Below, in pieces: positions 456 to 33,078 of a stretch of 33,284 nt of DNA. Origin of the DNA: a virus; the IMG/VR virus record IMGVR_UViG_3300028772_000051, positions 1-33,284 of that record. One strand, given 5' to 3'. Within the stretch, counting starts at the first letter, position 1. Each line of letters starts with the position of its first letter. The notes below the pieces were generated by a model. It ran no database searches. It had not been told where the DNA came from and worked only from the letters and a program-made list of their open reading frames with translations. The position numbers and the translations under genes were made by a program.

Positions 456-500
456 ATGAGCGTATTGCACACACATTTCAATTATTATTGTTAGCTTTAC
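456..500 (+). promoter_or_regulatory. Phage-type promoter/operator, copy 1 (long spacing)
   Basis: ATGAGCGTATTGC (456-468) matches the GTGAGCGTATTAC box seen at four other operon starts in the window. The -7-like box TAGCTTTAC (492-500) and the bases after it closely match those of copies 4 and 5. The distance from the first base of the box to the TA of the -7 box is 36 bases, against 25 or 26 in the other copies, which is one extra helical turn. A poorer -7 candidate, TATTATTG, lies at 483-490, closer to the usual spacing. The right half of the dyad is not conserved in this copy, and a separate terminator lies upstream. Confidence 0.55.
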
Positions 501-534
501 ACATTCTTTTAAACAAACAAATAAACACAAGACA

Positions 535-786
535 ATGTCAGTAGCAACATTACCCCCAACAAAGACCGACAAGGCAGTTGAATTATTCAACCTTGGCAAC
601 ATAGTAGCAGCTTTCGGAATTTTCAAAACGTTCAGAATTGGTTTTTCAGCAGACGAACGTAGAACACTTCAAATAGCACATGAATCAATGACCGGGAAAG
701 AGTCGTTCTACAAGTCATTACAGATTGATACAGACGCTATCAAGACACAAGCCTTACAACTTATCAAATCAAAGTATAATCTTTAA
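535..786 (+). CDS. Small hypothetical phage protein (83 aa)
   Basis: First gene after promoter copy 1, with the ATG 35 bases beyond the -7 box and an A-rich leader (AACACAAGACAATG), as is usual in Bacteroidetes. The protein is soluble and mixed in composition, with a hydrophobic central helix around NIVAAFGIF and no signal peptide or membrane segment. I do not recognise the family. It opens a chain of closely spaced small genes that reaches the scaffold promoter. Codon use matches the neighbours and the coding frame is clean, so a real gene is likely. Function unknown. Confidence 0.65.
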   Translation: MSVATLPPTKTDKAVELFNLGNIVAAFGIFKTFRIGFSADERRTLQIAHESMTGKESFYKSLQIDTDAIKTQALQLIKSKYNL

Positions 787-799
787 ACAGTAGCAGAAA

Positions 800-1075
800 A
801 TGGAAACAATTAATTGGAATGCCCCAAAAAGTGAGCACGAACTTATTGGAAAAATCGTAAAACGTGCAGTAAAAGAATTAGATGAAATAGTAGTCATGGA
901 CTTGAACATGGATGTGACTGCAACTCATTGTAATGGAACTCCTTTGGATTTGGAAAAGCTATTAGCCTTTGATGAATTCAACTTTTCACATGATATTTAT
1001 GGTATCATGGATCATATCGACAGGACCAATGGAAAACTAACTCGTGGTTTTTTACCTCGTTGTTCAAAACACTGA
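800..1075 (+). CDS. Hypothetical phage protein, resembles DUF6874 family
   Basis: The 91-residue protein has a N-terminal half rich in charged helices and a conserved-looking block (MDVTATHCNGTPLDLEKL) followed by an acidic 'DEFNFSHDIYGI' stretch. It ends GKLTRGFLPRCSKH. This pattern resembles small proteins labelled DUF6874 in Bacteroides-group phages, and that assignment is from memory and tentative. The gene starts 14 bases after the preceding stop. The start codon is preceded by CAGTAGCAG, one of several copies of a TAGCAG element found just before start codons in this window. No catalytic motif is visible and the function is unknown. Confidence 0.65.
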   Translation: METINWNAPKSEHELIGKIVKRAVKELDEIVVMDLNMDVTATHCNGTPLDLEKLLAFDEFNFSHDIYGIMDHIDRTNGKLTRGFLPRCSKH

Positions 1076-1079
1076 TGCC

Positions 1080-1283
1080 ATGAAAGTAAATGAATTAGTT
1101 CAAATACTGCAAGAATTAAATCAGGAAGCTGAAATTGTTATTGAACACGATTTAAAATACAATAGAGTGAATAGTAAAATTGACACCAGTAAGCCAATAA
1201 AAGAGATAGAAATCAAGCATGTAAAGTCAAATGAGTTCTTTACTTCTGAATATGCACTTAGCACAACAACAAATTTTAAATAG
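1080..1283 (+). CDS. Small hypothetical protein (67 aa)
   Basis: I chose the ATG at 1080, four bases after the previous stop, rather than the in-frame ATG at 1044. The earlier start would overlap the previous gene by 32 bases, and MKVNELVQILQELNQEAEI looks like a natural N-terminus. The protein is small, lysine- and glutamate-rich, and has no membrane segment or recognisable catalytic motif. The arrangement 'L..L..EAEIVIEHD' resembles short helix-strand phage proteins of unknown role. It is part of the small-gene chain driven from promoter copy 1. Confidence 0.6.
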   Translation: MKVNELVQILQELNQEAEIVIEHDLKYNRVNSKIDTSKPIKEIEIKHVKSNEFFTSEYALSTTTNFK

Positions 1284-1290
1284 TAGCAGT

Positions 1291-1485
1291 ATGAAAAAGC
1301 AAAAATTAAATGCCTATCAAATGAACGGTTACAACAGCCGTGAAGATTATTTGAGGTCTATTTCGGAAGAGAATGGAATTGAATACTCTGTAGTTTTACA
1401 ACTGGCTCAAATGCTCGGAGCAGAAGAAGACTTCGATGGTCTTGTTGTAACGATTGAAGAAAATAGTTTAATCTTTTCAGAATAA
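1291..1485 (+). CDS. Small hypothetical protein (64 aa)
   Basis: The start at 1291 is favoured over an in-frame ATG at 1231 because it follows the previous stop directly and is preceded by TAGTAGCAGT, the same pre-start element found at 22229-22237 and 33104-33113. The product begins MKKQKLNAYQMNGYNSREDY and ends in an acidic, hydrophobic segment. The residues YNSREDYLRSISEENGIE suggest a short helical protein. I do not recognise the family, and no transmembrane segment is present. Its role is unknown, but it belongs to the non-structural block between the minor head gene and the scaffold. Confidence 0.6.
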   Translation: MKKQKLNAYQMNGYNSREDYLRSISEENGIEYSVVLQLAQMLGAEEDFDGLVVTIEENSLIFSE

Positions 1486-1491
1486 AGGAAT

Positions 1492-1782
1492 ATGGCACAC
1501 ACAAACGGAGATTGGCAACGAGTATGGAACACAAAGAATAGTCCTGAAACTTGCATTATCAAAGCAATAGCAAAAGATGGTTCAAAAAAATCTATTTGTA
1601 GAATCATAACAAATGAAAATGATTTTGAAAATGCAAAGTTAATAGTTGCAGCACCGGTAATGCTAGAAGCATTGAAAAGATTTCAAGAAGAATGGGTTGT
1701 AAATGGCAATCCTGCACAAAGAGCAAATAATTATTCAATTGAGAAACAGATAAACGCAGTAATCAAAAGAGCAACAGAATGA
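1492..1782 (+). CDS. Hypothetical phage protein with 'NAKLIVAAPVMLEAL' motif
   Basis: The 96-residue protein has the segment ENAKLIVAAPVMLEALKRF, a motif widely seen in small early proteins of phages and prophages (typically written NA.LIAAAPE.LEAL). The N-terminal part is a short beta-rich region beginning HTNGDWQRVW. These proteins have no assigned function, although they are usually in early or accessory regions. The gene begins 7 bases after the previous stop and overlaps the next gene by 4 bases (ATGA), so it is probably translated together with the RadC-like gene that follows. Confidence 0.7.
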   Translation: MAHTNGDWQRVWNTKNSPETCIIKAIAKDGSKKSICRIITNENDFENAKLIVAAPVMLEALKRFQEEWVVNGNPAQRANNYSIEKQINAVIKRATE

Positions 1783-2228
1783 AAACATACAAAGGCACTC
1801 TTCCAGAAATAGAGTTGAAGTACAAAAAAGGCGATACGCTGAGATGTAAGATTGCTTCATCCAAAGATGCAGCAGAGTTATTCATGAAATTCTATGACCA
1901 GGACGTTTTCGAATTGACAGAAAGTGTAATTGTCATTTACTTGAACTCAGCAAATAATACCATTGGTTGGATGAAGCATTCAACAGGAGCTACAAATCAA
2001 ACCGTTATTGATCCAAAACTTATAGTCGGTGCAGCATTAAAAATGGGAGCTTCCGGAATAATTATTTCGCACAATCACCCAAGCGGAAACGCATTCCCTA
2101 GCACTCATGATAAAGCTGTTACAAAACAGTTGAAAGACGGATGTAAGTTATTCAACATTACATTACTGGATCATATCATTGTTACCGAAGATAGTTATTA
2201 CAGTTTTGGAGATGAAGGAGAAATGTAA
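1779..2228 (+). CDS. RadC-like JAB/MPN-domain protein
   Basis: The 149-residue protein is about the size of the JAB domain alone and lacks the N-terminal helix-hairpin-helix part of full-length RadC. The JAMM metal motif is complete: H98-x-H100 (in SHNHPSG), then ten residues, then D111 (in STHDKA), with an upstream Glu in the FELTES strand. The fold is that of a zinc metallo-isopeptidase, and RadC-type members are common on mobile elements, where their role in repair or anti-restriction is not proven. The start overlaps the previous stop by 4 bases (ATGA). It is unusual to see this gene between the minor head and scaffold genes. Confidence 0.85.
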   Translation: MKTYKGTLPEIELKYKKGDTLRCKIASSKDAAELFMKFYDQDVFELTESVIVIYLNSANNTIGWMKHSTGATNQTVIDPKLIVGAALKMGASGIIISHNHPSGNAFPSTHDKAVTKQLKDGCKLFNITLLDHIIVTEDSYYSFGDEGEM

Positions 2229-2246
2229 ATTTAAAATAAGATAGTT

Positions 2247-2561
2247 ATGAAACGTATTGTAAAAAACAAAATCGAAAAGAAGCCTGTATCAAAAGACGAA
2301 TTGATGGATCAGATAGTTCCTAAGCGTGGAGTTGCCAGTGCAGCAGAAAAACTAAGAGAGTTCAAAGAAAGTAATCAAAAACCAACGGTTCCAGTTTCCT
2401 CACTAAAGTATGGTTTTAAAAAAGCTTTGACATTGTTTGTTTCTCCTGATTTGACAAGAGAACAGATTATCGAGAAGTTCGAAAAACGTTTCAATGCTTC
2501 CGACATAAACATGTACAATGTGAAACGAGAACTAAGAGTAAAAAGAACAGTTAGAACATGA
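2247..2561 (+). CDS. Basic hypothetical protein (104 aa)
   Basis: The protein is strongly basic (N-terminus MKRIVKNKIEKKPVSKDE, C-terminus RELRVKRTVRT). A central segment, DLTREQIIEKFEKRF, could form a helix-turn-helix-like pair, which suggests possible nucleic acid binding, but I recognise no family. It starts 18 bases after the RadC-like gene and overlaps the next gene by 4 bases (ATGA), so it belongs to the same operon. No membrane segment is seen. Confidence 0.6.
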   Translation: MKRIVKNKIEKKPVSKDELMDQIVPKRGVASAAEKLREFKESNQKPTVPVSSLKYGFKKALTLFVSPDLTREQIIEKFEKRFNASDINMYNVKRELRVKRTVRT

Positions 2562-3009
2562 CACATGAAGAATTAGAATTGCTTGAAATAGCAAAAGAAA
2601 TAATCAAAAGCAATAGTCACTTGAATGCTATGCTAAGTGGGAGTTTAATGTTAGCTTATCGTGGAATTGATAAGCGAAGAGAAGCTACTGATATTGATAT
2701 TTTAGTAAGTAGTGTTACTGGTGCATTAATTATTCCTAATGGATTTAAACAAAAGGAAATTGAAACAGAAGAAGAGTATGAAGAATCAGAGTATTGCAGA
2801 TTTATTCTAACAATGATGGTATAAAATTAGATTTCTTCCAAACTGCCGAAATTCCTACTATTGTCGATGGCATTTCATGCGGATCAGTAAGAACGATGCT
2901 TGATGCAAAGTATGAGTATTGGAAAGATAATGGTAACGAAAAACACCGTTTAGATTTGGAATTTTTGAATTATAAATTCCCTATTGAAACAGATGATTTA
3001 CCATGGTAA
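2558..3009 (+). pseudogene. Nucleotidyltransferase-fold protein broken by a -1 frameshift
   Basis: Two frames together encode one protein of about 150 residues. The first (2558-2824) carries the nucleotidyltransferase-like signature LSGSLMLAYRG followed by ATDIDILV. The second continues from about 2804 to 3009 with NNDGIKLDFFQ, and then the conserved-looking DAKYEYWKDNGNEKHRLDLEF. Re-reading the last T of the TTT codon at 2801-2803 joins them cleanly as ..EYCRF-YSNNDG.., so one T appears to be missing near 2803. There is no slippery heptamer here, so a mutation or a sequencing indel is more likely than programmed frameshifting. The family resembles AbiEii/MNT-type nucleotidyltransferases carried by many Bacteroidetes mobile elements. 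Function (toxin, tRNA or protein modification) is not determined. Confidence 0.7.
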
Positions 3010-3044
3010 TTGACCCAATGTAATTTTTTTTATATTTTTTCTTC

Positions 3045-3082
3045 AAAAAGTGAGCGTGTTACGCTCACTTTTTGTATTTTTG
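3045..3082 (+). promoter_or_regulatory. Phage-type promoter/operator, copy 2; perfect dyad, likely also a terminator
   Basis: A perfect 13-bp inverted repeat (AAAAAGTGAGCGT at 3045-3057, ACGCTCACTTTTT at 3061-3073) with a 3-base centre lies 35 bases after the nucleotidyltransferase stop. Its 3' arm ends in TTTTT, so the RNA could terminate the upstream transcript. The -7 box TATTTTTG (3075-3082) begins 25 bases after the first G of GTGAGCG, exactly as in copies 3 and 4. No TTG is seen at the -33 position. It would start the head/tail operon, with a leader of about 90 bases before the scaffold ATG. A further inverted repeat (GAGCTTG / CAAGCTC) lies in this leader. Confidence 0.65.
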
Positions 3083-3170
3083 TGGCCTAACGAGCTTGTA
3101 ACACAGGTCAAAAAAGTGATGTTTGTTGACATGGCAAGCTCATAAAACAAACCATTAATTCATTAATCAA

Positions 3171-3833
3171 ATGAAAACCAAAGTGTTACAACTCCTAAAA
3201 CCCAAAACTGTATCGTTGGGGTTTAGTAAAGAAGAGCTTGAAGGTGTCGCAGCAGACCTTGCTGGAAACTTACAAGAAGATGCAACAGATGAAGCGATTC
3301 AATCCGAAATCGACAAAGTCCTTCCCTATTTGAAAGTGTCTCAGTCAATGGCTAACCGAGTAATCAATGCCGAGAAAGAGAAACTTAACAAGAAACAAGA
3401 ACCCGCACCGGGGTCTGACAAAAAACCTGTTGAACAGAATGATGAAATGCCTGCTTGGTATAAGAAGGAAAAGGAAGAGCAAAAAGCTCTTATTGATTCT
3501 TTGATAAATGCCAATCAAAAGAAAGACCGCAGAGCATCATTTGAAGCAACACTTGAAGGACTTCTACCCCTACAAAAAGCAGCAAAATTGAAAGATTTTG
3601 ACCGTATCAATTTCAAAGATGATGAAGATTTCAATTCCTATGTTACCGAGCAAGAAGAAGTTATGAAAGGTATCAAACAGGAGTTAGCCGACAAAGGTCT
3701 TGAAATTATCGGTGCGCCAGGAGTAGGTGGAAAAGGCGATGTCCCTGATAAGCCATCTGCGGAAGTACTCGAACGTGTTGCTGAAAGAAATGCAGAGCAG
3801 GGAGCAACTGCAATTACCGGGCTCCCAAAATAA
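3171..3833 (+). CDS. Head scaffolding protein
   Basis: The 220-residue protein is highly charged and predicted to be largely helical, with long E/K/Q-rich coiled stretches around residues 60-130 and 150-180. It has no membrane segment or catalytic motif. Its position immediately before a head-fibre-like gene and the major capsid gene is typical for the scaffold that shapes the procapsid and is then removed or degraded. A Pro/Gly-rich linker (GAPGVGGKGDVPDKP) precedes a helical tail that could form the capsid-binding end. The start follows an A-rich leader (TTAATCAAATG) and is the first ATG after promoter copy 2. Assignment is by composition and synteny rather than a specific motif. Confidence 0.7.
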   Translation: MKTKVLQLLKPKTVSLGFSKEELEGVAADLAGNLQEDATDEAIQSEIDKVLPYLKVSQSMANRVINAEKEKLNKKQEPAPGSDKKPVEQNDEMPAWYKKEKEEQKALIDSLINANQKKDRRASFEATLEGLLPLQKAAKLKDFDRINFKDDEDFNSYVTEQEEVMKGIKQELADKGLEIIGAPGVGGKGDVPDKPSAEVLERVAERNAEQGATAITGLPK

Positions 3834-3844
3834 ATTAAATCATC

Positions 3845-4399
3845 ATGAATGTAAAATTTGGACATACCGATCCGGCTGCTGTCGAACAGGTAGTTTTCGA
3901 GCAAGTTCTTGGAGAAAAGCCTGGTGGTGCCTTAGTAGCTAACCCTACTTACGACATTAAGACCGGGACTGCTGTAGGTTTATCTGCAGGTATCCTAAAA
4001 CCAATTAAAGCACTGCGACTTGTAAAGGCTGTTGGTGTTTCTGACACTACCATTGAAGTAGAAAAAGGTAGTGGTGTTATTGTAGGCGAATTTATCGCTA
4101 ACGGTACAAAATCAGTTGCAGTTACTGAGGTTGACACAACTACCAGTACTGTAAAGGATATTGTTACTGCAACTCTTGGTTTGGTTATTCCAGTTGGAAC
4201 AGTACTGTATCAGGCAGCTTCGGCTTCTGCTTCGGCAGCTACTCCAATCTACACACCAAGTTTCCTAACAGGTGCACCGGTGTATGCAGGCGAAGGAGAT
4301 CAACTTGTAAGAGTTATCAACATTGCCAATGTGAGAAAAGAAACGGTTAATGCTTCTACAGAAGTTTTAGCTCTGTTACAAACCATTAAAGCTGTATAA
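3845..4399 (+). CDS. Head fibre / head decoration-like protein
   Basis: The 184-residue protein sits between scaffold and major capsid. The N-terminal segment VKFGHTDPAAVEQVVFEQVL is followed by a beta-rich middle with many Val, Thr and Ala residues, a low-complexity ASASASAA hinge near residue 137, and a C-terminal helix. This resembles proteins called head fibre proteins in Bacteroides phages (related to phi29 gp8.5-type proteins), which decorate the capsid surface. It starts 11 bases after the scaffold stop and ends 2 bases before the capsid start, so it is tightly coupled to capsid expression. The call rests on position and composition; a decoration protein of another family is possible. 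Confidence 0.6.
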   Translation: MNVKFGHTDPAAVEQVVFEQVLGEKPGGALVANPTYDIKTGTAVGLSAGILKPIKALRLVKAVGVSDTTIEVEKGSGVIVGEFIANGTKSVAVTEVDTTTSTVKDIVTATLGLVIPVGTVLYQAASASASAATPIYTPSFLTGAPVYAGEGDQLVRVINIANVRKETVNASTEVLALLQTIKAV

Positions 4400-4401
4400 T
4401 C

Positions 4402-5502
4402 ATGGAAAAACCATTATTTGAGCTAGATCAACCCGGCATGAATGCCGAGGTGAACTCGTATAAACCGGGTACTGGACTTGTTTGGTCCATCTTGTTCCCG
4501 TTGAAGTACACTCCTAAATTTGACCTGAAAGGAATTGAGGGCAATGAAGGAATTCCTATTTCTGCCGACCGTGTTGCATTCAATGTGAAAGCTCCTTTGA
4601 AAACACGAAAGACTGTTGGTTCTTGGAGCGGAAAGCTTGGTAAAATCTCTATGTCGAAAGAGAAAGACGAAGTTCAAATCAACGAATATCGCGACCTTAA
4701 AACAATCTCTGCTGCAAATACACAAGACAAAGCTACTGCAAGGTACTTGGTTGATATGGTGTATGATGACATCAAGGCTTGTTCTGACGGTATCGACTAC
4801 AAAGTTGAAATTGATGCTTTGCGTATCGGCTCAGCCGGAAAGCAAACTTTCCCTGCATCCATTGAGGGTGACATGGCAACTACCGATGAAATCAACTTCA
4901 ATATTGCTGCTGAAAACTTCGTAGGAGTTACAAAAGCTTGGAGTGATATTACTGCTGATGGAATTGGCGATGTTGTGAAAATGCAGAAAGAAATCACTAA
5001 AAAAGGTTTGAAAAAACCAATGTTTGCCATTTTGGAAACTTCCAAATTCGAGCAACTTTTGGCTCAAACTGCTACTGCTAAAAAAGTGGCTTCTATCTTG
5101 ATGAACGTAAGTGGTTTGACTTCAACAGAAGTTCTTTCTGTTGATAACGTAAATGCTTACATGCGCTCAAAAGGGTTTCCTCAGTTCCTTGTTTTGGATA
5201 GTTATGCAACTATCGAAGACAAAGCGGGAAAACAAACTACAATCAAACCTTGGAATGAAAATGTAGTTACTCTTTCGCCTGTTCCACAATTGGGTTGGAC
5301 TTATTACAAGCCTGTTCCAGTTATCGAAGAAACTGCTGCTTTGCAAGCTCAGGGAGCTTTTGCAAAAACAACTGTTTACTCGCAAGTTAACCCTATGTTG
5401 GAGGTTACAATGGCAGAAGCCTATGTACAACCTGCATTGATCAACCGTGCTTCGTTAGTGTTCATCAACACTACCAACGTAGCTTGGAACGGAGGATTAT
5501 AA
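4402..5502 (+). CDS. Major capsid protein (HK97-fold, gpE-like)
   Basis: The 366-residue protein directly follows the scaffold and head-fibre-like genes and has the usual size of an HK97-fold capsid protein. Visible features include an N-terminal arm, the segment VAFNVKAPLKTRKTVGSW near residue 57 that resembles the E-loop/'P-domain' entry of gpE-like capsids, an MVYDDIKACSDGIDYKVEID helix corresponding to the spine helix, and a C-terminal beta region ending INTTNVAWNGGL. No prohead protease is encoded nearby, so head maturation probably does not involve a separate protease. The gene has high G+C for this genome and strong codon bias (AAC, GCT, GGT), consistent with very high expression. Confidence 0.85.
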   Translation: MEKPLFELDQPGMNAEVNSYKPGTGLVWSILFPLKYTPKFDLKGIEGNEGIPISADRVAFNVKAPLKTRKTVGSWSGKLGKISMSKEKDEVQINEYRDLKTISAANTQDKATARYLVDMVYDDIKACSDGIDYKVEIDALRIGSAGKQTFPASIEGDMATTDEINFNIAAENFVGVTKAWSDITADGIGDVVKMQKEITKKGLKKPMFAILETSKFEQLLAQTATAKKVASILMNVSGLTSTEVLSVDNVNAYMRSKGFPQFLVLDSYATIEDKAGKQTTIKPWNENVVTLSPVPQLGWTYYKPVPVIEETAALQAQGAFAKTTVYSQVNPMLEVTMAEAYVQPALINRASLVFINTTNVAWNGGL

Positions 5503-5503
5503 G

Positions 5504-6958: not shown

Positions 6959-6979
6959 TTTAAAGAAAGGGAAAAATAT

Positions 6980-7480: not shown

Positions 7481-7481
7481 A

Positions 7482-7536: not shown

Positions 7537-7562
7537 ATCTATTTACTCCGGAACTTTTCGAC

Positions 7563-7611
7563 AGAGTAGAGTAGAGTAGAATAAAGAAGAGTAGATAAGA
7601 GTAGAAAAAAG
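7563..7611 (+). repeat. AGTAG-rich purine repeat tract, copy A
   Basis: A 49-base, almost all-purine strand with five AGTAG units (three in direct tandem, period 5) lies between the major tail protein and chaperone genes. A second tract of the same type occurs at 21586-21630, and both have related flanks (see findings). It contains no open frame of note and its function is unknown. Confidence 0.75.
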
Positions 7612-7643
7612 CATTTTCGCGAACAATTTTTCAGTATGAAATT

Positions 7644-19279: not shown

Positions 19280-19380
19280 TAGATAATAACATAAATTGAG
19301 GTTTGTTTTTTAAAAGAATTTGATAATTGACACTAGAATGTTATCAATTTGCTGATTTATTGCATGTTTTTCAGAAATAA

Positions 19381-19413
19381 GTGAGCGTATTACAATCATA
19401 TTTTATATTTTTG
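19381..19413 (+). promoter_or_regulatory. Phage-type promoter/operator, copy 3 (lysis operon)
   Basis: GTGAGCGTATTACAATCA (19381-19398) is identical to copy 4 over its whole length. The -7 box TATTTTTG begins 25 bases after the first G. The right half of the dyad (ACAATCA) is degenerate compared with copies 2 and 5. It lies 49 bases before the holin start. The gene upstream is divergent, so no terminator function is needed here. Confidence 0.7.
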
Positions 19414-21585: not shown

Positions 21586-21630
21586 AAGAGTAGAGTAAAG
21601 TAGAGAAGAATAGAGTAGAGTAGAAAAGAG
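21586..21630 (+). repeat. AGTAG-rich purine repeat tract, copy B
   Basis: Forty-five bases of nearly pure purine strand with four AGTAG units and variants lie after the lysis cassette. It matches the tract at 7563-7611, and the sequence before it (ATTCAGGAACAAT, CTTCCCGAACTTTTGGC) also resembles the region before the first tract. A CG-rich block (TCGCGCGCGG, 21571-21580) directly precedes it and is absent in copy A. The whole 21522-21869 gap holds this tract, a terminator and promoter copy 4, and no gene. Confidence 0.75.
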
Positions 21631-21682
21631 ATTTTTCCGAAAAAATATACTGCTGTTTTATACTGTTTAAAATTTGTTTGAT

Positions 21683-21718: not shown

Positions 21719-21788
21719 GTTAGTAAACGTCAACAAAAAGAAGAATACAGTTAATCAAACTTAAAACAAAGAAACATTCTCGCAAAAT

Positions 21789-21822
21789 GTGAGCGTATTA
21801 CAATCATATTTGCTAGTTTTAC
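21789..21822 (+). promoter_or_regulatory. Phage-type promoter/operator, copy 4
   Basis: GTGAGCGTATTACAATCA (21789-21806) is identical to copy 3. TAGTTTTAC (21814-21822) serves as -7 box, again starting 25 bases after the first G, and is followed by ATATTATT as in copy 5. The upstream operon has its own terminator, and the dyad here is degenerate. It would drive the genes from 21870 to about 25771. Confidence 0.7.
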
Positions 21823-21869: not shown

Positions 21870-22226
21870 ATGAAAGCAATAATCGTAAAAGACAATGATT
21901 TTAAGACAATTGGTTTTGAGGTTACCTCTAAAGCAGAAAATGGATTAAGAGGTGAAACAATACTATTTAGTTGGGGAATATCCTCAACACTAAAAAGCAA
22001 CTTTCAAAAGGAAGTCAATGCAAATCATTGGTTAGTTCAAATTTTCGATTTAGTTAAGCTTAAAGGAGTTCTTCAAGAACAAGAAGAAGGTGTTCGTGAG
22101 TTCTTTAGTGTTGCAGGTAAGAATAAATTAATCAAAGACGGACAAGGTGTTGATGTCAATGATTATAAGCAAAGAGTTGAAATTACAAAAATGAAAATTG
22201 AAAATATAGTTAAGAATATAATTTAA
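21870..22226 (+). CDS. Hypothetical protein (118 aa)
   Basis: First gene after promoter copy 4, with a 48-base A-rich leader. The protein begins with a beta strand (MKAIIVKDNDFKTIGFEV), then a middle with VNANHWLVQIFDLVKLKG, and a helical C-terminus. No motif or membrane segment is recognised. The LKGVLQEQEEGVREFF region looks like a helix. Function unknown; its place beside a methyltransferase operon hints at an accessory or anti-restriction role, which is speculative. Confidence 0.6.
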   Translation: MKAIIVKDNDFKTIGFEVTSKAENGLRGETILFSWGISSTLKSNFQKEVNANHWLVQIFDLVKLKGVLQEQEEGVREFFSVAGKNKLIKDGQGVDVNDYKQRVEITKMKIENIVKNII

Positions 22227-22237
22227 AAAGTAGCAGT

Positions 22238-23153: not shown

Positions 23154-24557
23154 ATGAATGAAGATATAAAATTGATTTACGTTGATTTATTTTGTGGAGC
23201 AGGTGGAACTTCCACAGGAGTTGAAAGTGCAAAAGTAAGAAAAGAACAATGTGCCAAGGTAATCGCTTGTGTCAATCACGATAAAAATGCGATTGCTTCG
23301 CATGAAGAAAACCACCCTGATGCGCTTCACTTCACCGAGGATATAAGAACACTCGACCTATCAAAGCTTATTGCACATGTTCAGTTTATGCGCATTATGT
23401 ACCCAAATGCAAAGCTTGTTCTTTGGGCTTCGTTAGAGTGCACAAACTTCAGTAAGGCAAAAGGTGGACAGTCGAGAGATGCAGACAGTAGAACGCTTGC
23501 AGAACATTTATTCAGGTACATAGAAGCTCTTAATCCTGATTACGTTCATATTGAGAACGTAGAAGAATTTATGAGTTGGGGTGAGTTGGATGATAATGGA
23601 AAACCAGTTAGTAGAAATAATGGAAAAGATTATATCCGATGGATGAAGCAAGTTTGCTCTTATGGATATGATTCAGATTTCAGAATTTTGAACTCAGCAG
23701 ATTTTGGAGCATATACTTCACGCAAGCGATTGTTTATTCAATTCGCAAAATACGGTTTACCTATCAACTGGCCTGAACCTACACATTGCAAAGGTGGATC
23801 GGTTGGAATGTTTGATTTCAAAAAATGGAAGCCAGTAAAAGAAGTACTCGACTTCACGGATGAAGGTGTGTCAATTTTCACACGAAAGAAAGATTTATCC
23901 GAAAAAACGCTAGAACGGATTCATGCGGGACTGATCAAGTTTGTTGCAGGTGGAAAAGACAAATGGATTTTGAAATACAATTCCACTAATGGGAAAACAG
24001 GGAAACATAATCCACCATCTGTAGATGATCCTTGTCCAGTAGTTAGTACACAAGGAAGATTGGGAATTGTAAAGTGTGATTTTCTATCAATATACAATTC
24101 AGGTAATCCGGATCATAGAAATACTTCAATAAATGATCCTTGTGGAGTAGTTACAACGAATAACCGTTTTGCAAAAGTTCAATGTGATTTTTTATCAGCT
24201 TATTATGGAAATGGTGACAATGTTAGTTCTGTGAATAATCCAAGTCCAACCGTAACGACAAAAGACAGATTAGCTTTAGTTTCTCCACGATTCATTGATC
24301 AACAATTTGGACAGTCAAAGCCTGCATCAATTGAAAAACCATGCGGTGCATTAACTGCAAATCCAAAGTACAACCTGGTAACATGTAATCGATTTATTGT
24401 AAATCAGTATTCAGGAGGTGGTCAACATTCAGACGTAAATAATCCGTGTCCTGCTGTTTTATCAACTCCAAAACAAAATCTAGTTACCTTGAAACCGTGG
24501 ATAATGAATACCAACTTAGCAATATTGGCAGCTCGATTGATGAACCATCCAAAGTAA
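23154..24557 (+). CDS. C5-cytosine DNA methyltransferase, N-terminal part (frameshift-truncated)
   Basis: The visible frame has 467 residues. Motif I is VDLFCGAGG (residues 10-18), the catalytic Cys96 is in the motif IV variant LECTNFSKAKGG (instead of PPCQ), the ENV motif is E134-N135-V136, and the motif VIII region reads SRKRLFIQF. From about residue 270 there are repeats of about 34 residues with the pattern 'P(C/S)..V.T..R...V' (for example DPCGVVTTNN, NPSPTVTTKD, KPCGALTANP, NPCPAVLSTP), in the place of the target recognition domain. The frame ends at 24557 in an unrelated ..RLMNHPK tail. The correct continuation is in the -1 frame from about 24518 and carries motifs IX-X. The truncated form lacks motif X and is probably inactive unless the sequence has an error. 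Confidence 0.85.
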   Translation: MNEDIKLIYVDLFCGAGGTSTGVESAKVRKEQCAKVIACVNHDKNAIASHEENHPDALHFTEDIRTLDLSKLIAHVQFMRIMYPNAKLVLWASLECTNFSKAKGGQSRDADSRTLAEHLFRYIEALNPDYVHIENVEEFMSWGELDDNGKPVSRNNGKDYIRWMKQVCSYGYDSDFRILNSADFGAYTSRKRLFIQFAKYGLPINWPEPTHCKGGSVGMFDFKKWKPVKEVLDFTDEGVSIFTRKKDLSEKTLERIHAGLIKFVAGGKDKWILKYNSTNGKTGKHNPPSVDDPCPVVSTQGRLGIVKCDFLSIYNSGNPDHRNTSINDPCGVVTTNNRFAKVQCDFLSAYYGNGDNVSSVNNPSPTVTTKDRLALVSPRFIDQQFGQSKPASIEKPCGALTANPKYNLVTCNRFIVNQYSGGGQHSDVNNPCPAVLSTPKQNLVTLKPWIMNTNLAILAARLMNHPK

Positions 24558-24967
24558 TTACAGCTAATCGTAAATGGCATTACCTGATGAACCCGCAATT
24601 TGGTAACCAGGTTCGCTCGGTTGATGATCCATGTTTCACTTTGATTGCTAGAATGGACAAAATGCCCCCTTATTTCATAGTTGCAGAAGATGGTAAAATG
24701 CAAATTCGAATTGAGAAAGATGATTCTGAATTTACCGTAAAAATCAAAGAATTCATGTCGATTTACGGAATAGTTGACATTAAAATGCGAATGCTGAAAA
24801 TTCCTGAACTCAAAATGATAATGGGATTCCCAAAGGATTACAAGCTTATCGGAACGCAGGCAGAGCAAAAGAAATATATAGGTAATGCAGTAGAGGTAAC
24901 GATGGCAAGAGTCCTTTGTGAAGCAGTAGCAATTAAATTACATCAACAAACAAAAATAGCAGTATGA
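24518..24967 (+). pseudogene. C-terminal part of the C5-cytosine methyltransferase (out of frame)
   Basis: This fragment continues the methyltransferase in the -1 frame. It starts inside a repeat (SNIGSSIDEPSKVITANRKW), includes one more (VRSVDDPCFTLIARMDKMPP), and ends with the conserved motif IX-X region, RMLKIPELKMIMGFPKDYKL and KKYIGNAVEVTMARVLCEAV. The join is clean if one T is added after position 24517 (..NTN-F-SNIG..). A GTG at 24446 opens a slightly longer frame, but its first 25 residues do not resemble the family. The fragment alone cannot be an active enzyme. Its stop overlaps the start of the next gene (ATGA). Confidence 0.75.
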
Positions 24968-26201: not shown

Positions 26202-26218
26202 AATAGCTAGGATTTCAA

Positions 26219-26461: not shown

Positions 26462-26462
26462 T

Positions 26463-26470: not shown

Positions 26471-26489
26471 CATTAATAAACAAAGTAGC

Positions 26490-28122: not shown

Positions 28123-28321
28123 GGCTAACTGCTGTTTGAAGTAAATATAATTCCTCAATGTATTCTCCAAGGTTCATATCCTCTTTGCCATCTTTTACAA
28201 ATGACTTGTCAAGTTCAATTTTTGCTGCTTGAATTTCTGTAGCAAATTGTCCTGCAGTAATATTGTTGGCTACTGCTTGTTTGTAAAGTAATAACAGTTT
28301 TTCTAGTTGTTCTGTTTTCAT
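28115..28321 (-). CDS. Small helical hypothetical protein (68 aa)
   Basis: The protein begins MKTEQLEKLLLLYKQAVANN and is predicted almost entirely helical, with a leucine-rich N-terminus. It lies between the zinc-ribbon gene and the HTH gene in the minus-strand immunity operon, 11 bases after the zinc-ribbon stop, and overlaps the next start (ATGAATAA). It could be a small partner or antirepressor of a regulator, but no family is recognised. Confidence 0.6.
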   Translation of the reverse strand: MKTEQLEKLLLLYKQAVANNITAGQFATEIQAAKIELDKSFVKDGKEDMNLGEYIEELYLLQTAVSHE

Positions 28322-28332
28322 ATTCGTTGTTG

Positions 28333-28869
28333 TTAACTGTATATTATATATGAAAGTATTGATCCGACTGCAATAAATATCACCAATATGCCGGCACAGC
28401 CTGATTTTTTCGCTGATATTATATTGTGCTTTGCTTTGATAAATTCGACTTTTGATTTAGCTGTTTGTAAATCAACGTTCTTTTTATCGCGATATAATTT
28501 GATTGCATCAATAATATCACCTTTTTGAATGATTGGAATGAGAAGTTCTTCAATATCTTCGTCAGCCGAACTTATAGTAAGAGCTTCACCTGCTTTGAAC
28601 TTGTTCCCACACTTAAGACATGTTATTGATACATCTTTGCTGCCGATTGTTCCGGCTAACACTCCTACTCCACCTGTAAGCAATGCTCCTGCCAGTGCCT
28701 TACTTCCGCTAAATCCTTTTTGTTCTGAGTGAAGTTCTTTTGAATAGCATTTTGGACAGCATAAGTATTCCTCTTGAATTTTTGTAGCTATTGGGTTACC
28801 GCAGTGAGGACATGATACAGCTTTGTCGCTTACCTCTTTCCCGCATTCTGTGCAATTAATTAATGCCAT
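28333..28869 (-). CDS. Zinc-ribbon protein with membrane anchor and L7/L12-like motif
   Basis: The 178-residue protein begins with a zinc ribbon (CTECGKEVSDKAVSCPHCG), followed by a second CxxC pair (CCPKC) and a third (CLKC) around residue 85, so two metal sites are likely. A glycine-rich hydrophobic stretch (GSKALAGALLTGGVGVLAGT) lies between them. Near residue 120-145 is DIIDAIKLYRDKKNVDLQTAKSKVEF (only part quoted: DAIKLYRDKKNVDL), resembling the ribosomal L7/L12 C-terminal motif. The last 25 residues are a membrane segment (AGILVIFIAVGSILSYII). Such proteins are scattered in bacterial genomes with unknown role; one in a phage immunity operon could act in exclusion or stress sensing, which is speculative. 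Confidence 0.7.
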   Translation of the reverse strand: MALINCTECGKEVSDKAVSCPHCGNPIATKIQEEYLCCPKCYSKELHSEQKGFSGSKALAGALLTGGVGVLAGTIGSKDVSITCLKCGNKFKAGEALTISSADEDIEELLIPIIQKGDIIDAIKLYRDKKNVDLQTAKSKVEFIKAKHNIISAKKSGCAGILVIFIAVGSILSYIIYS

Positions 28870-28870
28870 G

Positions 28871-29215
28871 TTATTTGTTTAATGAGTTTTCTATGAGTGT
28901 AATAAGTCTGTCAATTTGCTGATCCTTTCGTTCCAGGCTATCGGCTTGTTTTTTCATTATCTCAAAAGCAATTTGAAGTTCATTTTTATGACCACCATAA
29001 TGTGGGTGTTCATCAGATACAATTCCACTTTCTGTGTAATATCTCATTATGTTCTCTTTTCCGTATTTGTCAATTAAAATATTTAATTGCTCTTCGGTCA
29101 GGTCTTTTCCGTCATTTTCAATCGCAGATATATTCGGCTGTTTACAACCTAACAGTATCGCTGCATCTTTTTGTGTTATACGATGCTCTTTTCGCAAACT
29201 TTGTAAATCAAACAT
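28871..29215 (-). CDS. XRE-family HTH regulator, probable phage repressor
   Basis: The 114-residue protein has a Cro/CI-type HTH: LRKEHRITQKDAAILLGCKQ, then PNISAIENDGKDLTEEQLN. A linker with HPHY and a coiled-coil C-terminus (QADSLERKDQQIDRLITLIE) probably dimerises it. It is the first gene of the leftward operon and is divergent from the Cro-like gene at 29393, the classical arrangement of a lysogeny switch. The palindromes at 29281-29322 are its likely operators. It lacks a LexA-type self-cleavage domain, so induction would have to use another mechanism. Confidence 0.8.
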   Translation of the reverse strand: MFDLQSLRKEHRITQKDAAILLGCKQPNISAIENDGKDLTEEQLNILIDKYGKENIMRYYTESGIVSDEHPHYGGHKNELQIAFEIMKKQADSLERKDQQIDRLITLIENSLNK

Positions 29216-29280
29216 GTATCTATTTTTAATTAAAATAAATATGTATATATGTGAATAAACATTAATTATGCAACAATATC

Positions 29281-29322
29281 ATCAATATATCATTGATATA
29301 TCAATTATATTCGATACTTTTA
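29281..29322 (+). promoter_or_regulatory. Early rightward promoter with overlapping palindromic operator
   Basis: ATTGATATATCAAT (29292-29305) is a perfect 14-bp palindrome, and the neighbouring ATCAAT/ATTGAT pair (29281-29297) forms a second, overlapping dyad. A TTG at 29293-29295 lies exactly 19 bases before TACTTTTA (29315-29322), which suits a -33/-7 pair for the Cro-like operon. A repressor bound to the palindrome would cover the -33 box. An ACCACT/AGTGGT inverted repeat lies further downstream in the leader. Confidence 0.6.
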
Positions 29323-29392
29323 CACTATAATATAAAACCACTAAACAAAAGTAGTAAAAAGTGGTATATCGACACACATAAATTAAAATTAT

Positions 29393-29632
29393 ATGGAAAA
29401 TATGACATCCGAAAGTCAATCGAAAATCGATTTAAAGACTTTTTACAAGAATCTGCCAAGGGCAGTAGCTCCAAAAACTGATTTTGTTGAACGTGTTGCA
29501 CTTCAGTGTAATGTAAATGAGCAAACAGTTAGAACATGGGTTGCAGGGACTAATAAACCAAGCGATCCTGCATATATCGAAATATTGGTAAAAGAAACCG
29601 GCATTGCTGCCGAAAATCTATTTGAAAAATGA
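29393..29632 (+). CDS. Cro-like HTH protein (79 aa)
   Basis: The protein has a compact HTH: residues 25-50 include KTDFVERVALQCNVNEQTVR followed by TWVAGTNKPSDPAYIEILVK. It is divergent from the XRE repressor gene, with the operators between them, so a Cro-like or early regulator role is likely. An internal ATG at 29402 (MTSESQ) is also possible. It overlaps the next gene by 4 bases (ATGA). Confidence 0.75.
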   Translation: MENMTSESQSKIDLKTFYKNLPRAVAPKTDFVERVALQCNVNEQTVRTWVAGTNKPSDPAYIEILVKETGIAAENLFEK

Positions 29633-30180
29633 CAGAGTTTAGCACTGATCCAATGACTGGCGAAGGGATGTACAGAAGAGTTGGTGAATCTGTAGTTAAT
29701 CAGTTTACCTTAAAAGACACTGACATTGCAGCCGAATTGCTCGAAAGAAGTGAAACGTTTTATCCTGAACAAGCAGAAGCTTTAAAAAAGGAGTATGCAA
29801 AAAGTTCTGCCAATAAACCGTATTACGATTTTTTGAGAGCCCGGAGAATAATAAACTGTTGCTTTGGAGAAAATGACCGTCAACCCGATGTTGACCAGTT
29901 TGGAAATTACAATTTCGAAATGGTAAAATGTCCATTGATAGCAGAATGTAAGTATTTCAAAATTATTTGTCAGCCGAAATTTGATAGTACGCTATCAGCA
30001 AGAGAGTTGGAAGTAATGAAAAAGTACTATGAAAACTGTAAAACTGAAACGATAGCAGAGGACTTGTTTCTTTCTATCCACACAGTAAAGAACCACCGAA
30101 GAAATGCACTTCAAAAGCTTGGATTGCATTCACTTATTGAATTTAAAGATTACGCACATAACAACAAACTTTTCAAGTAA
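29629..30180 (+). CDS. LuxR/GerE-type HTH regulator with Cys cluster
   Basis: The 183-residue protein has a C-terminal LuxR-type HTH: LSARELEVMKKYYENCKTET, then IAEDLFLSIHTVKNHRRNAL and QKLGLHSL, with the typical Glu, Leu, Thr-Val-Lys and His residues of GerE domains. Before it is a cysteine-containing segment (INCCFGEN, VKCPLIAECKYFKIICQ) that could bind metal or sense redox state. Proteins of this type are frequent in the early operon of Bacteroides-group prophages and are candidates to activate later promoters. The start overlaps the Cro-like stop by 4 bases, and its stop overlaps the next start (TAATGG). Confidence 0.8.
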   Translation: MTEFSTDPMTGEGMYRRVGESVVNQFTLKDTDIAAELLERSETFYPEQAEALKKEYAKSSANKPYYDFLRARRIINCCFGENDRQPDVDQFGNYNFEMVKCPLIAECKYFKIICQPKFDSTLSARELEVMKKYYENCKTETIAEDLFLSIHTVKNHRRNALQKLGLHSLIEFKDYAHNNKLFK

Positions 30181-30455
30181 TGGAAAACGTAGCAGAACCA
30201 ATTGTAGAAGTATCAAAAGTGTTCAATCTAAGTATGGAACACGACACAGCAAATCACACGTGGACACAGAAAATTGACCCTTTCACTGTATTTGTTGATT
30301 TAAAAAATAAAGTGATTAAAACGTTCAAAAATGGTAAAGAGATAGAATTACTTAGTTTCAAGGATCATTCGTTTAGCCTTTTGGATTACGAAAATCTACT
30401 GATGACAGTAGAGCAAAATGCAAATGAATTAAAGCAGTTTAGCAATGAATCTTGA
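30180..30455 (+). CDS. Hypothetical early protein (91 aa)
   Basis: A 91-residue protein starting MENVAEPIVEVSKVFNLSME, with beta strands in the middle (FTVFVDLKNKVIKTFKNGKE) and a helical, acidic tail. The ATG shares one base with the LuxR-type stop (TAATGG), so translation is coupled. It overlaps the next gene by 11 bases. No family recognised. Confidence 0.6.
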   Translation: MENVAEPIVEVSKVFNLSMEHDTANHTWTQKIDPFTVFVDLKNKVIKTFKNGKEIELLSFKDHSFSLLDYENLLMTVEQNANELKQFSNES

Positions 30456-30699
30456 CCCGAACACACCAGTATGGCAGTTGACAGTAGGGCAGTTCACAGA
30501 ACTAATGACTTCTCTACAACCAAAGCCAGTAGAGCTTGTTCCTGAGGAAGTAATTCTAAACACAAAGGAAGCAGCAGCCTATTTGAAAGTTAGCATCAGC
30601 ACACTGAACCGTTGGAATAAAGATTACTTGAAAAGTGATAAAAAAGGCGGTATTCGAAGATACCGAAAAAGTGAATTGGACAAAATTTTAAACAAATAA
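30445..30699 (+). CDS. Excisionase-like / MerR-type HTH DNA-binding protein
   Basis: The 84-residue protein has an N-terminal 'VWQLTVGQFTELM' helix and then a HTH_17-type domain: ILNTKEAAAYLKVSISTLNR, with the wing WNKDYLKSDKKGGIRRYRKS. This pattern is typical of small excisionases and related helix-turn-helix proteins on Bacteroidetes mobile elements. It could control integrase directionality, although it lies 2.6 kb from int and in the early operon. It overlaps the previous gene by 11 bases. Confidence 0.75.
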   Translation: MNLDPNTPVWQLTVGQFTELMTSLQPKPVELVPEEVILNTKEAAAYLKVSISTLNRWNKDYLKSDKKGGIRRYRKSELDKILNK

Positions 30700-30702
30700 A
30701 AC

Positions 30703-31083
30703 ATGAAAACAAAAGATATTGAAGAAATTATAAGTTTATGTGAACCATTAGCTTTGATAATGTCTGAATTAAGTAAGTCAGATGAAAATTCGCTAACACA
30801 AATCGCTAAAAGTGCAATCAAAATAAAACCCGTATTGGAAGATTTTGTAAATGTAAATCAAGGAATATCTCAAAAAAAATATCTAAAATTAGAATCTAGC
30901 AAGCAAGATTTTTGCGATAATGTCGATGGGTTGGTTGACTCAATTGATGATTTACAGGAATTAATAGAAGATGAAGGTTTTGATGCATGTAATGACATTA
31001 TGAATTTAGAGGACATTCGAACTTGGCTATTTAGAATAATGGATTATAAAAATGTAAAAAACAAATCAGCCGAAAAGGCATAA
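30703..31083 (+). CDS. Acidic hypothetical early protein (126 aa)
   Basis: The protein is acidic and mostly helical, starting MKTKDIEEIISLCEPLALIM and including DNVDGLVDSIDDLQELIEDE. It has no signal peptide, membrane segment or recognised motif. It lies 3 bases after the excisionase-like gene and 10 bases before the Rad50-like ATPase gene, so it is in the same early operon. Function unknown. Confidence 0.55.
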   Translation: MKTKDIEEIISLCEPLALIMSELSKSDENSLTQIAKSAIKIKPVLEDFVNVNQGISQKKYLKLESSKQDFCDNVDGLVDSIDDLQELIEDEGFDACNDIMNLEDIRTWLFRIMDYKNVKNKSAEKA

Positions 31084-31093
31084 ATACAGCAGT

Positions 31094-33025
31094 ATGAAAA
31101 TAACACTAAAAAAGCTGACACTCCGAGGATTTAGAGGGGTCGTTTCAGAAAGTTTTGAGTTTATCGGTCGTGAAACTTTCATTCATGGTCGAAACAAAGC
31201 AGGAAAAACATCGCTATACGATGCTTTCCTATGGGTGAATTTCGGAAAGGACCACTTGGATCGTTCCGATTATCAATTGAAAACTCGTGATTTACTTGGT
31301 AACACGAAACCAAAAACAGAATGCGAAGTTGAAGAAGTTCTTGATGTAGATGGTAAGATTACTACACTCAGACGAGTGTACGGTGAAAATTGGGTAAAAC
31401 CAAAAGGAGAAGCCGAAGAAGTATTCAAAGGAAATACAACGACCTATTATATCAATGATGTGGACGTACCAAAATCTGAGTACGATGCTTTTGTATTAGG
31501 TCTTTGTGGTGAAAAAGTTTTCAAGTCAATTACCAACCCGCATTATTTCCCAAGTCTTAGTAAGGACGAACAGAGAGCTTTATTATTCAGCATGGCCGGA
31601 GAAATAACCAACGAATCGGTTGCAGCAACTAACAAAGCATTTCAAGAGTTATTGACTGAAATTACTGGTGTTTCGTTTGACTCTTTCCGTAAGGAATTGG
31701 CAGCCAAAAAACGCAGGATAAAAGAGGAGTTAGCCGGTATTGAACCGAGAATTGACGAGTTGAAAAGAACGATGCCCGAAATTCCCGATCTTGATGCAAT
31801 CAACAAAGAATTGGAAGAAAAGAAAGGTAAAATTGAACTTGTCGAAATGTCAATTTCAGACATTGCTAAACAGTCCGAAAGCGTTCAGAAAGAACGGTTA
31901 GAATGGCAGGGTGAAATCAACAAGTTGGAGCTTGAAAACCAACAACTAGGCTTTGAAGAAACTCAAAAGCAATCGCAAGCAATTCAGGAAGTAAAACGTA
32001 AGATTGATGTCGTAAAATCAAGTAACCTTGAAGTAGAAAACAAAGAAGCTCAACGGAAACAGAAAGTAGTTTCTTTGAATAAAGAAAAGGACGAAAAGCT
32101 TGAAATTATTGCACAGTATCGCAAAGAATATCAGAATATAAATGCTGAAACTCTAACATTTCCCGAAGGAGCTTTTGAATGTCCTACCTGCAAACGATTA
32201 CTTGAACCGTCAGACATTGATGCAAAGCAAGCTGAATTGGTAGCCAATTTCAACAACGAAAAGGCAAGACGGATTGAAGAAAATAAGAAGAAAGGTCTTG
32301 CGATTAAAACTCGATTGGATGAAATTGAGAAAGAACTTGAACAGCTTGTTGTACCTGTTGAAGCTGAAAAGTTCACAGGCACAAAGTTGGATATTCTAAA
32401 CGAAGAACTTGTAAAAGTATCACAGCCGATACCGTTAACCGAAAAGCAAAACGAAAACCAAGGAAAAATAAACTGGTTCCGTTCCAAGCTCAATGAAGAA
32501 GTAAATTTGCAAGGAAATCAACGCTTCATTGAAGAAAAGAACCAACTGCAAGGCGAGATTGATAAATTGAAAGAACGACTTGCATTGAAAGACGTTGTTG
32601 AAAATACGAATACCCGGATCAAGCAACTAGAAGGACAATTCAAAACACTCAACCAGGAGTTGGCCCATCTTGAAAGAAAAGAATTTACGCTGAAAGAATT
32701 TGAATTTGCAAAGAATACTGAATACGAAGTTCGTATCAATCAAATGTTCAAATATGTAAAATTCAAGTTATTTGCTCAGCAAGTAGATGGTCAGATTATC
32801 CCAACTTGTGAAGCTATGATTGATGGAGTTCTTTACTCTACTTTGAACAATGCAGATCAATACAAATGCGGTTTGGATATTATCAATACCATTTCAGCCT
32901 ATAACGATAAGTACGCACCTATATGGCTTGACAACCGTGAGGGAGTAACTGAAATCCCTGAAATGACAGCACAAGTTATCAATTTGGTTGTAAATCCTGA
33001 GAAACAAAAACTTACTATCGTTTAG
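31094..33025 (+). CDS. Rad50/SbcC-like ATPase with zinc hook
   Basis: The 643-residue protein has an SMC/Rad50-type ATPase head split between both ends. Walker A is GRNKAGKT (residues 32-39). Long coiled coils (about 190-340 and 390-560) flank a zinc-hook-like CPTC at residues 363-366. Near the C-terminus PIWLDNREGVTEI looks like the Walker B/D-loop region. Members act in recombination, repair or end processing of phage DNA, usually with a nuclease or single-strand annealing partner. No partner (Mre11/SbcD-like nuclease, RecT or Erf) is visible in the window, and it may lie to the right. The start is preceded by TACAGCAGT, like other starts in this phage. Confidence 0.85.
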   Translation: MKITLKKLTLRGFRGVVSESFEFIGRETFIHGRNKAGKTSLYDAFLWVNFGKDHLDRSDYQLKTRDLLGNTKPKTECEVEEVLDVDGKITTLRRVYGENWVKPKGEAEEVFKGNTTTYYINDVDVPKSEYDAFVLGLCGEKVFKSITNPHYFPSLSKDEQRALLFSMAGEITNESVAATNKAFQELLTEITGVSFDSFRKELAAKKRRIKEELAGIEPRIDELKRTMPEIPDLDAINKELEEKKGKIELVEMSISDIAKQSESVQKERLEWQGEINKLELENQQLGFEETQKQSQAIQEVKRKIDVVKSSNLEVENKEAQRKQKVVSLNKEKDEKLEIIAQYRKEYQNINAETLTFPEGAFECPTCKRLLEPSDIDAKQAELVANFNNEKARRIEENKKKGLAIKTRLDEIEKELEQLVVPVEAEKFTGTKLDILNEELVKVSQPIPLTEKQNENQGKINWFRSKLNEEVNLQGNQRFIEEKNQLQGEIDKLKERLALKDVVENTNTRIKQLEGQFKTLNQELAHLERKEFTLKEFEFAKNTEYEVRINQMFKYVKFKLFAQQVDGQIIPTCEAMIDGVLYSTLNNADQYKCGLDIINTISAYNDKYAPIWLDNREGVTEIPEMTAQVINLVVNPEKQKLTIV

Positions 33026-33038
33026 TAATCTTTAACTC

Positions 33039-33078
33039 AATAAGTGAGTGTATAACACTCACTTATTGCTAGATTTAC
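33039..33078 (+). promoter_or_regulatory. Phage-type promoter/operator, copy 5; perfect dyad, likely also a terminator
   Basis: AATAAGTGAGTGT (33039-33051) and ACACTCACTTATT (33055-33067) form a perfect 13-bp dyad around a 3-base centre, 14 bases after the ATPase stop. The arms differ from copy 2 at two places in each arm, and the changes compensate each other, so the dyad itself is selected. The -7 box TAGATTTAC (33070-33078) begins 26 bases after the first G. The following ATATTATT matches copy 4. Confidence 0.65.

Follow-up and report, generated by a model that had tools for sequence, protein, structure and literature searches.

In phage lambda, the CII activator is encoded soon after cro and works on several promoters from their -35 regions, including one that faces cI; it recognises direct repeats, and the structural genes are not under its control. 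In the sigma appropriation described for the T4 middle promoters (PMC2988021), MotA acts together with AsiA, the host -10 element is kept and a phage box centred near -30 replaces the -35 element. Bacteroidota primary-sigma promoters are described (PMC7366714) as having TTTG at -33 and TAnnTTTG at -7. The DNA analysed here, a stretch of 33,284 nucleotides called the window below, belongs to a temperate phage whose hosts are gut-type (Bacteroidota) bacteria. Its promoters resemble the MotA/AsiA type in that the downstream host element is kept and a phage box stands in place of the -35/-33 element. They share the -7 box type with the Bacteroidota primary-sigma promoters, but the -33 element is absent in nearly all copies and a palindrome is found in its place. 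MotA, however, is a monomer with a double-wing fold that requires AsiA and reads a non-palindromic box, whereas here we find a 19–23 bp palindrome and a candidate regulator with a GerE domain. As with CII, this candidate is encoded soon after cro and a weak site faces CI in three related phages, but the sites are palindromes rather than direct repeats and precede late operons.

The five boxes that a sequence-only reading of this DNA had placed at 456, 3050, 19381, 21789 and 33044, each before the first gene of an operon, are all present and all intergenic. The palindromy of the boxes had been overlooked in that reading: each is one arm of a palindrome of 19–23 bp, AAGTGAGYGTATTACRCTCACTT, whose arms match imperfectly in copies 1, 3 and 4; of the 12 position pairs flanking the centre (±1 to ±12), 6, 11, 7, 9 and 11 are paired in copies 1 to 5, respectively. 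All five sites are on the plus strand. Site 1 (454–476) precedes a small-gene block starting at 535. The near-perfect site 2 (3048–3070) is followed by the -7 box TATTTTTG at 3075–3082 and by the head/tail operon (3171), and site 3 (19379–19401) by the same -7 box at 19406–19413 and the lysis operon (19462). Site 4 (21787–21809), with the -7 box TAGTTTTA at 21814–21821, precedes the gene at 21870, after which come a primase-like gene (22238) and a methyltransferase gene (23154). Site 5 (33042–33064), also near-perfect, is located after an SbcC-like gene and has its -7 box TAGATTTA at 33070–33077, the next gene starting at 33114. The palindrome centre lies 16–17 nt before the TA of the host-type -7 box in copies 2–5, and the box-to-TA distances, counted from the first base of the box and given as 25, 25, 25 and 26 nt for these copies, were reproduced; in copy 1 the -7-like box, TAGCTTTA at 492–499, has its TA 27 nt after the centre and the box-to-TA distance is 36 nt.

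The -7 boxes are of the host consensus type and lie a median of 45 nt before the ATG. The claim that no TTG/TTTG -33 box accompanies them holds for the window, where TTG 21–23 nt before the TA is absent in all five copies (copy 1 judged by eye), but not for a longer, 52-kb form of this phage, in which two additional sites both carry TTG (GTGATTG) at the -33 distance. Among the palindromic promoters compared, which have the palindrome 15–18 nt before the -7 box, TTG was found at 21–23 nt in 4 of 54, against 9 of 12 early promoters (P = 3e-6, like all our P values nominal because the sites within one phage are not independent); for the 9/12 count the nearest early box was chosen by eye, additional early boxes in phage Versailles and the window were passed over, and two records that gave none (G005 and G010; such numbers are our handles for related records) were left out. 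The early promoter of the window (29292–29322, plus strand) consists of the operator ATTGATATATCAAT (29292–29305), with TTG at the -33 distance, and the -7 box TACTTTTA (29315–29322).

Matches to GTGAGCGTATTAC with up to two mismatches number six in the window, the sixth being the opposite arm of copy 2, against 0.40 expected, and six were reached in none of 100 dinucleotide shuffles; with three mismatches the excess was not significant (10 window matches against 5.49 expected, reached by 7 of 100 shuffles). A position matrix built from the sites of this same phage scored the five at 23.5–32.7 bits and the next best place in the window at 10.4 bits; in 100 shuffles that preserve two-base blocks only, the maxima went up to 22.3, slightly below the 23.5 of site 1. 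The exact palindrome GTGAGYGTNNNACRCTCAC was found in 29 stretches among all viral contigs, four of them from three records of the same phage. Rfam at gathering scores gave no matches in the window, and a consensus fold of three sequences revealed no compensatory pairs in a candidate conserved leader hairpin after site 2.

Related phages were gathered with the LuxR/GerE-type protein as bait, and its gene is therefore in all these records. A recurrent in-register palindrome of their own was found in five of the six relatives at 59–69% LuxR identity and in five of the 12 scanned relatives at 42–50%. No such regulon was found in the sixth close relative, a 4.9-kb fragment (G007, 68% LuxR identity), in the other seven of the 12, in any of the seven scanned below that range, or in the second LuxR prophage of G009. 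Since the initial seeds in the relatives had been picked for having an in-register box, we ran two counts by distance and by shifted register. Using matrices that start from consensus strings chosen after seed inspection, 54 of the 90 sites in 11 records had the box at 15–18 nt, with at most four at any other single distance. At least three distinct in-register palindromes were present in 10 of the 26 scanned records, a count that omits low-GC seeds, against 1, 1, 0, 3 and 0 of 26 in five shifted control registers and none of 26 when the box was reversed; among eight control phages that lack LuxR, one likewise had three in-register palindromes. Versailles has two in this strict count and three in the matrix scan. 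The set contains some redundancy: G001 is the same phage as the window, and G027 is nearly the same as Versailles.

The relatives have kept the places of the sites, which are mostly intergenic, but not the operator letters. Palindromes with different letters follow the SbcC-like gene in G001, G003, G004, G005, G006 and G008 and precede the first head-operon gene in G001, G004, G006, G008 and G018. About seven operator codes can be distinguished: window/G003, G004–G006, G008, G009/Versailles, G016, G018 and, weakly, G028, whose motif is weak and AT-rich. In nine LuxR phages without the regulon (G010–G015, G017, G019 and G020) a search for another palindrome type produced no convincing candidate; a palindrome does recur in G015, out of register. 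For many of the 63 genome and 49 viral loci collected, the scan covered stretches rather than whole records (104 stretches, L063–L166). The place after the SbcC-like gene, used as an anchor in further loci, yielded no new operators. Given that the palindromes stand in the -33 position and that the relatives keep their places while changing their letters, the palindrome is probably bound by a phage-made switch protein that activates later genes. The related phages give good support to the suggestion that the box replaces or covers the -33 element and marks a regulon with a dedicated regulator.

The best and most likely candidate for a palindrome-binding activator is the LuxR/GerE-type protein (phrog_10300; 29629–30180, plus strand) encoded after cro in the early operon. 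Its C-terminal part matches the Pfam GerE domain at 54.4 bits (cut-off 23.5, E = 9e-15), and the structure predicted for it agrees with NarL and GerE along some 60 residues. The best solved-structure matches, nearly all within residues about 102–178, are a NarL–DNA complex and GerE, both DNA-binding dimers. The candidate shares the C-terminal GerE domain with LuxR/NarL/GerE regulators but differs from them in its N-terminal part, where residues 1–115 had no Pfam match, whether to a receiver or autoinducer-binding domain or to any other, and where four cysteines (C77, C101, C107 and C114) are invariant. The odd-centred operator is a further difference: well-known GerE-type operators have an even number of bases, and the odd centres of the late palindromes here count against a GerE-type binder.

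We consider it reasonably likely that the boxes are the operators of one phage-encoded regulon served by a dimeric activator, most likely this LuxR/GerE-type protein. The protein would be made from the early lytic operon directly after cro and would bind as a homodimer to the 19–23 bp palindromes, whose centres would lie about 27–28 bp before the transcript start if the usual -7 placement is assumed. The bound dimer would cover the place of the missing -33 box, contact the host RNA polymerase carrying the primary sigma factor and so switch on the post-early operons for replication, packaging, head/tail, lysis and primase/methyltransferase functions.

Among the three kinds of regulator offered by the sequence-only reading, a dedicated activator fits best, and the LuxR-type protein is the leading candidate for it; a repressor fits less well and an alternative sigma factor is improbable. 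A Cro-like small HTH-type protein (29393–29632, plus strand), the first gene product of the early operon, could serve the same regulon as binder of the palindromes, alone or with the LuxR-type protein. Its gene adjoins LuxR in every motif-bearing record, and operator similarity tracks Cro and the GerE domain equally (rho 0.42 for each over the same pairs), so that the correlation does not separate the two proteins. Against the LuxR-type protein as binder, G009 and G018 have identical recognition helices across the 19 residues compared, yet an operator similarity of only 0.41. Lambda Cro and CI operators are odd-centred, and the late palindromes resemble them in this respect. Against the Cro-like protein stands the early operator ATTGATATATCAAT, found among the compared genomes only in the window, G004 and G001. 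It lies before cro in G004 as well, yet the late palindrome of G004 differs strongly from that of the window (similarity 0.13, among the least alike pairs). The CI/Cro-type sites and the late sites are therefore apparently read by different proteins, the XRE-type pair of Cro and the divergently encoded CI-like (HTH_3) regulator (28871–29215, minus strand) probably using ATTGATATATCAAT, and we regard Cro as the binder of the late sites as unlikely.

Less likely still is that the palindromes are repressor operators at which a lysogenic repressor or LuxR blocks sigma at otherwise competent promoters. The sites do overlie the -33 position and the spacer of the promoter, where repressors classically act, and weaker late-type sites occur in the interval from cro to CI in G008, G009 and Versailles and immediately ahead of cro in G004. 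A repressor fits less well because a -33 TTG, kept by the early promoters of the same phages, is missing from most of the palindromic promoters; in addition, the candidate regulator belongs to the early lytic operon rather than to the CI unit, and no late-type palindrome was found in the early region of the window, whose CI–cro control region does not carry the same operator (best late-type matrix score -3.6). Intrinsic termination of the upstream operons is a highly improbable account. Copies 2 and 5 would form stable hairpins (-19.3 and -18.2 kcal/mol), and copy 2 is flanked by A and T runs, but a stable GC-rich hairpin with a T run was not found in every copy: copy 4 folds weakly, and copies 1 and 3 no better than shuffles. 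A terminator, moreover, requires no common sequence and no set spacing from a -7 box beyond it. Both functions, operator and terminator, could be combined in copies 2 and 5. The idea that the LuxR-type protein is itself an alternative sigma factor appears the least probable of all, although its counterpart in Versailles, WAK79119.1, is annotated so and weak sigma region 4 matches exist (E = 2e-4 only, below the curated cut-off and in the GerE part). It is disfavoured because the -7 box follows the host consensus, the element upstream of it is palindromic with two-fold symmetry and the GerE match is far better; a domain search found no match to sigma region 2.

A broader and more tentative possibility, which we would not yet expect to prove right, is that a whole group of temperate Bacteroidota phages redirects the RNA polymerase of the host by means of a protein that has a GerE domain and a cysteine-rich N-terminal part and replaces sigma region 4 at -33, each lineage having a private palindromic code in which operator and regulator change together. 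With private codes, fixed promoter places and such joint change, co-resident prophages would be insulated from each other. Literature searches returned papers on MotA, Versailles and Bacteroides promoters and none on such a regulon; the timing of gene expression in Bacteroidota phages is hardly described in the papers returned. The present analysis yields a defined regulon, a candidate activator and a series of distinguishable operator codes, one of which belongs to Versailles, a named prophage of Bacteroides caecimuris that has been induced, and late gene control in gut phages thus becomes directly testable. If the proposed mechanism is true, it would provide orthogonal activator/promoter pairs for Bacteroides, and it would mean that the -33 box of Bacteroidota can be replaced wholesale.

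The 33,284-base virus record encodes a temperate phage with an integrase, CI-like and Cro-like regulators, an SbcC-like nuclease subunit, a primase-like protein, a methyltransferase, head and tail proteins and an endolysin. The five boxes reported by the sequence-only reading at 456, 3050, 19381, 21789 and 33044 are present at these positions, are more than chance, and each prove to be a single arm of a palindrome, AAGTGAGYGTATTACRCTCACTT, whose arms pair at 11 of 12 positions in copies 2 and 5 and at 6, 7 and 9 of 12 in copies 1, 3 and 4. A position matrix built from the five sites recovers them at 23.5–32.7 bits, the next best place in the window reaching at most 10.4 bits; as the matrix derives from this phage's own sites, the evidence is this gap and not the scores themselves. 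In G001, a 52,205-base record carrying the same phage, the matrix finds eight places, seven scoring at least 23 bits and an eighth, at 17.8 bits, within the gene of the LuxR/GerE-type protein (window 29629–30180). Outside the window, G001 adds two sites, one ahead of a replication-initiation gene and the other ahead of an operon reaching the terminase small subunit and portal genes, so that an upstream site exists for every large block that comes after the early operon.

In copies 2–5, a TAnnTTTG/TTTA element of the host −7 type (consensus from an excerpt of PMC7366714) has its TA 16 or 17 nt downstream of the palindrome centre; in copy 1 the distance to the box is 27 nt. With the TA near −11, the palindrome would span roughly −38 to −17 and so take in both the −33 position and the spacer.

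Relatives were gathered via the LuxR-type protein (9 loci at first, followed by 63 genome loci and 49 viral ones together with an alignment), and the controlled scan covered 26 records, mostly whole contigs. Recurrent palindromes of the same register in other letters occur in the related phage records G003 (ATGTGAGTACAATATACTCATTT and others), G004 (AAAGGTCGTTAATAACGACCTTT), G005 and G006 (AAAGGTCTCTAATGGAGACTTTT and others), G008 (AAGCGTTTATAATACAAACGCTT, 8 of 8 in register), G009 from Dysgonomonas (AAGTGTGTTTGTCAGACACATTA), G016 (AATGAGGTTTATTAAACCTTGTT) and G018 (AAGTGTCTTATTATTAGACACTT), in Versailles, a prophage of Bacteroides caecimuris (AAATGTGTTTAGCGAACACATTT), and in weaker, AT-rich form in G028. 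The sequence-only reading was correct about the family, which extends further than sequence alone could reveal. Four of the 12 new records scanned once the hypothesis existed were positive (G008, G009, G016 and G018). The literature search found no description of this regulon; an excerpt of PMC10197239 counts Versailles as one of 13 induced prophages, so that one member is active.

Matrices applied to 11 records gave 90 places, 54 of them with a box at 15–18 nt; no other distance exceeded four places (26–28 nt, four in all). Occurrence inside coding regions as often as before operons, which would have spoken against the family, is not what the relatives display: 49 of the 54 lie outside called ORFs, although ORFs cover 83–93% of these records, and 49 of the 54 have a called ATG no more than 160 nt away. 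The remaining 36 places lack an in-register box; many of them score weakly, but some in G009 and Versailles strongly. At least three distinct in-register palindromes were present in 10 of 26 records, against 1, 1, 0, 3 and 0 of 26 for five shifted registers and 0 of 26 for a reversed box. Seven of eight control Bacteroidota phages or pieces with no LuxR relative at 1e-4 gave at most one; the other, Alistipes phage AS73P1, has no detected relative of this LuxR and three ATTCTTTTGGTAGTTAAAATAAA-like palindromes in register, which are either chance or another regulon. To judge from these patterns, the palindromic operators almost certainly constitute one regulon.

Several other features of the window deserve mention. 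At the end of the contig (33194–33284), the gene that follows site 5 contains a 31-nt repeat coding for LDLRGTQ-type peptide repeats. Two purine-rich GAGTAGAGTAGA repeat copies (7568–7627 and 21587–21646; 78% alike over 60 nt) are present, one ahead of 7644 and the other upstream of site 4. The DNA methyltransferase match (23154–24967) is divided between overlapping frames, 23154–24557 and 24446–24967. The motif AGCAGTATG at 22232, 24958, 31088 and 33108 (also 1285) precedes the starts 22238, 24964, 31094 and 33114; it resembles an initiation signal specific to the phage, Shine-Dalgarno sites being mostly missing from this phylum. The head-operon 5' leader directly after site 2 (3085–3150) contains GAGCTTGTAACACAG, common to the window, G004 and G006; its arms GAGCTTG and CAAGCTC could pair, the letters of G008 differ there, and no compensatory pairs emerged from a consensus fold of three sequences.

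A TTG stands 21–23 nt before the TA in 9 of 12 phages at the box nearest upstream of cro (early promoter 29292–29322 in the window), in 4 of 54 palindromic promoters (two of the four in G001) and in 18 of 90 other intergenic boxes before ORFs; the nominal P for the palindromic promoters is 3e-6 against the early promoters and 0.055 against the other boxes. By this measure the early promoters look self-sufficient, unlike most of the palindromic ones. The contrast favours activation, which is quite likely how the sites act. Among known systems, T4 MotA comes closest in the way it works: according to an excerpt of PMC2988021, a phage box near −30 takes the place of the −35 element and the −10 is retained. 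The regulator domain and site symmetry differ, so the likeness is one of action, and membership is not claimed.

The palindromes are probably bound by the LuxR-type protein, as its sequence and predicted structure (mean pLDDT 89.5) suggest: its last ~60 residues match NarL on DNA and GerE. The N-terminal part is covered by none of the listed structure matches; cysteines 77, 101, 107 and 114 are unchanged in all 30 of the aligned sequences, and our guess is a zinc site. The Cro-like protein (29393–29632), whose gene is the constant neighbour of the LuxR-type gene in records with the motif, is a candidate binder as well, since operator similarity follows both proteins equally (rho 0.42 for each, over identical pairs); yet the window and G004 share the early operator ATTGATATATCAAT while their late palindromes rank among the least similar. 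The LuxR-type protein has difficulties of its own, as G009 and G018 have an identical recognition helix and only partly similar operators, and the regulon was not detected in many phages with a more distant LuxR. It was found in five of six records at 59–69% identity to the window protein, the sixth, G007, being a 4.9-kb fragment that ends within its 68%-identical LuxR gene and lacks sites of any known code; in five of 12 scanned at 42–50% (Versailles and G027 counted once); and in none of seven scanned below that band. Around the second LuxR-type gene of the G009 contig (59.9–60.5 kb), in another prophage, no palindrome regulon was found within 54–100 kb.

In G008, G009 and Versailles the interval from cro to CI contains a weaker site, in register toward CI, and G004 has a site just before cro without an in-register box; the matrix scan gave no late-type site in the window's cro/CI region (CI-like, 28871–29215, minus strand). 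These weak sites suggest that the regulator may have its own operon or CI as a further target. Phage lambda CII acts somewhat like this.

In G001, G003, G004, G005, G006 and G008 there is a site after the SbcC-like gene, and in G001, G004, G006, G008 and G018 there is one ahead of the first head-operon gene; the SbcC-like genes of Versailles, G009 and others have no site after them. The same places with different letters would be the promoter map expected when operator and regulator drift together.
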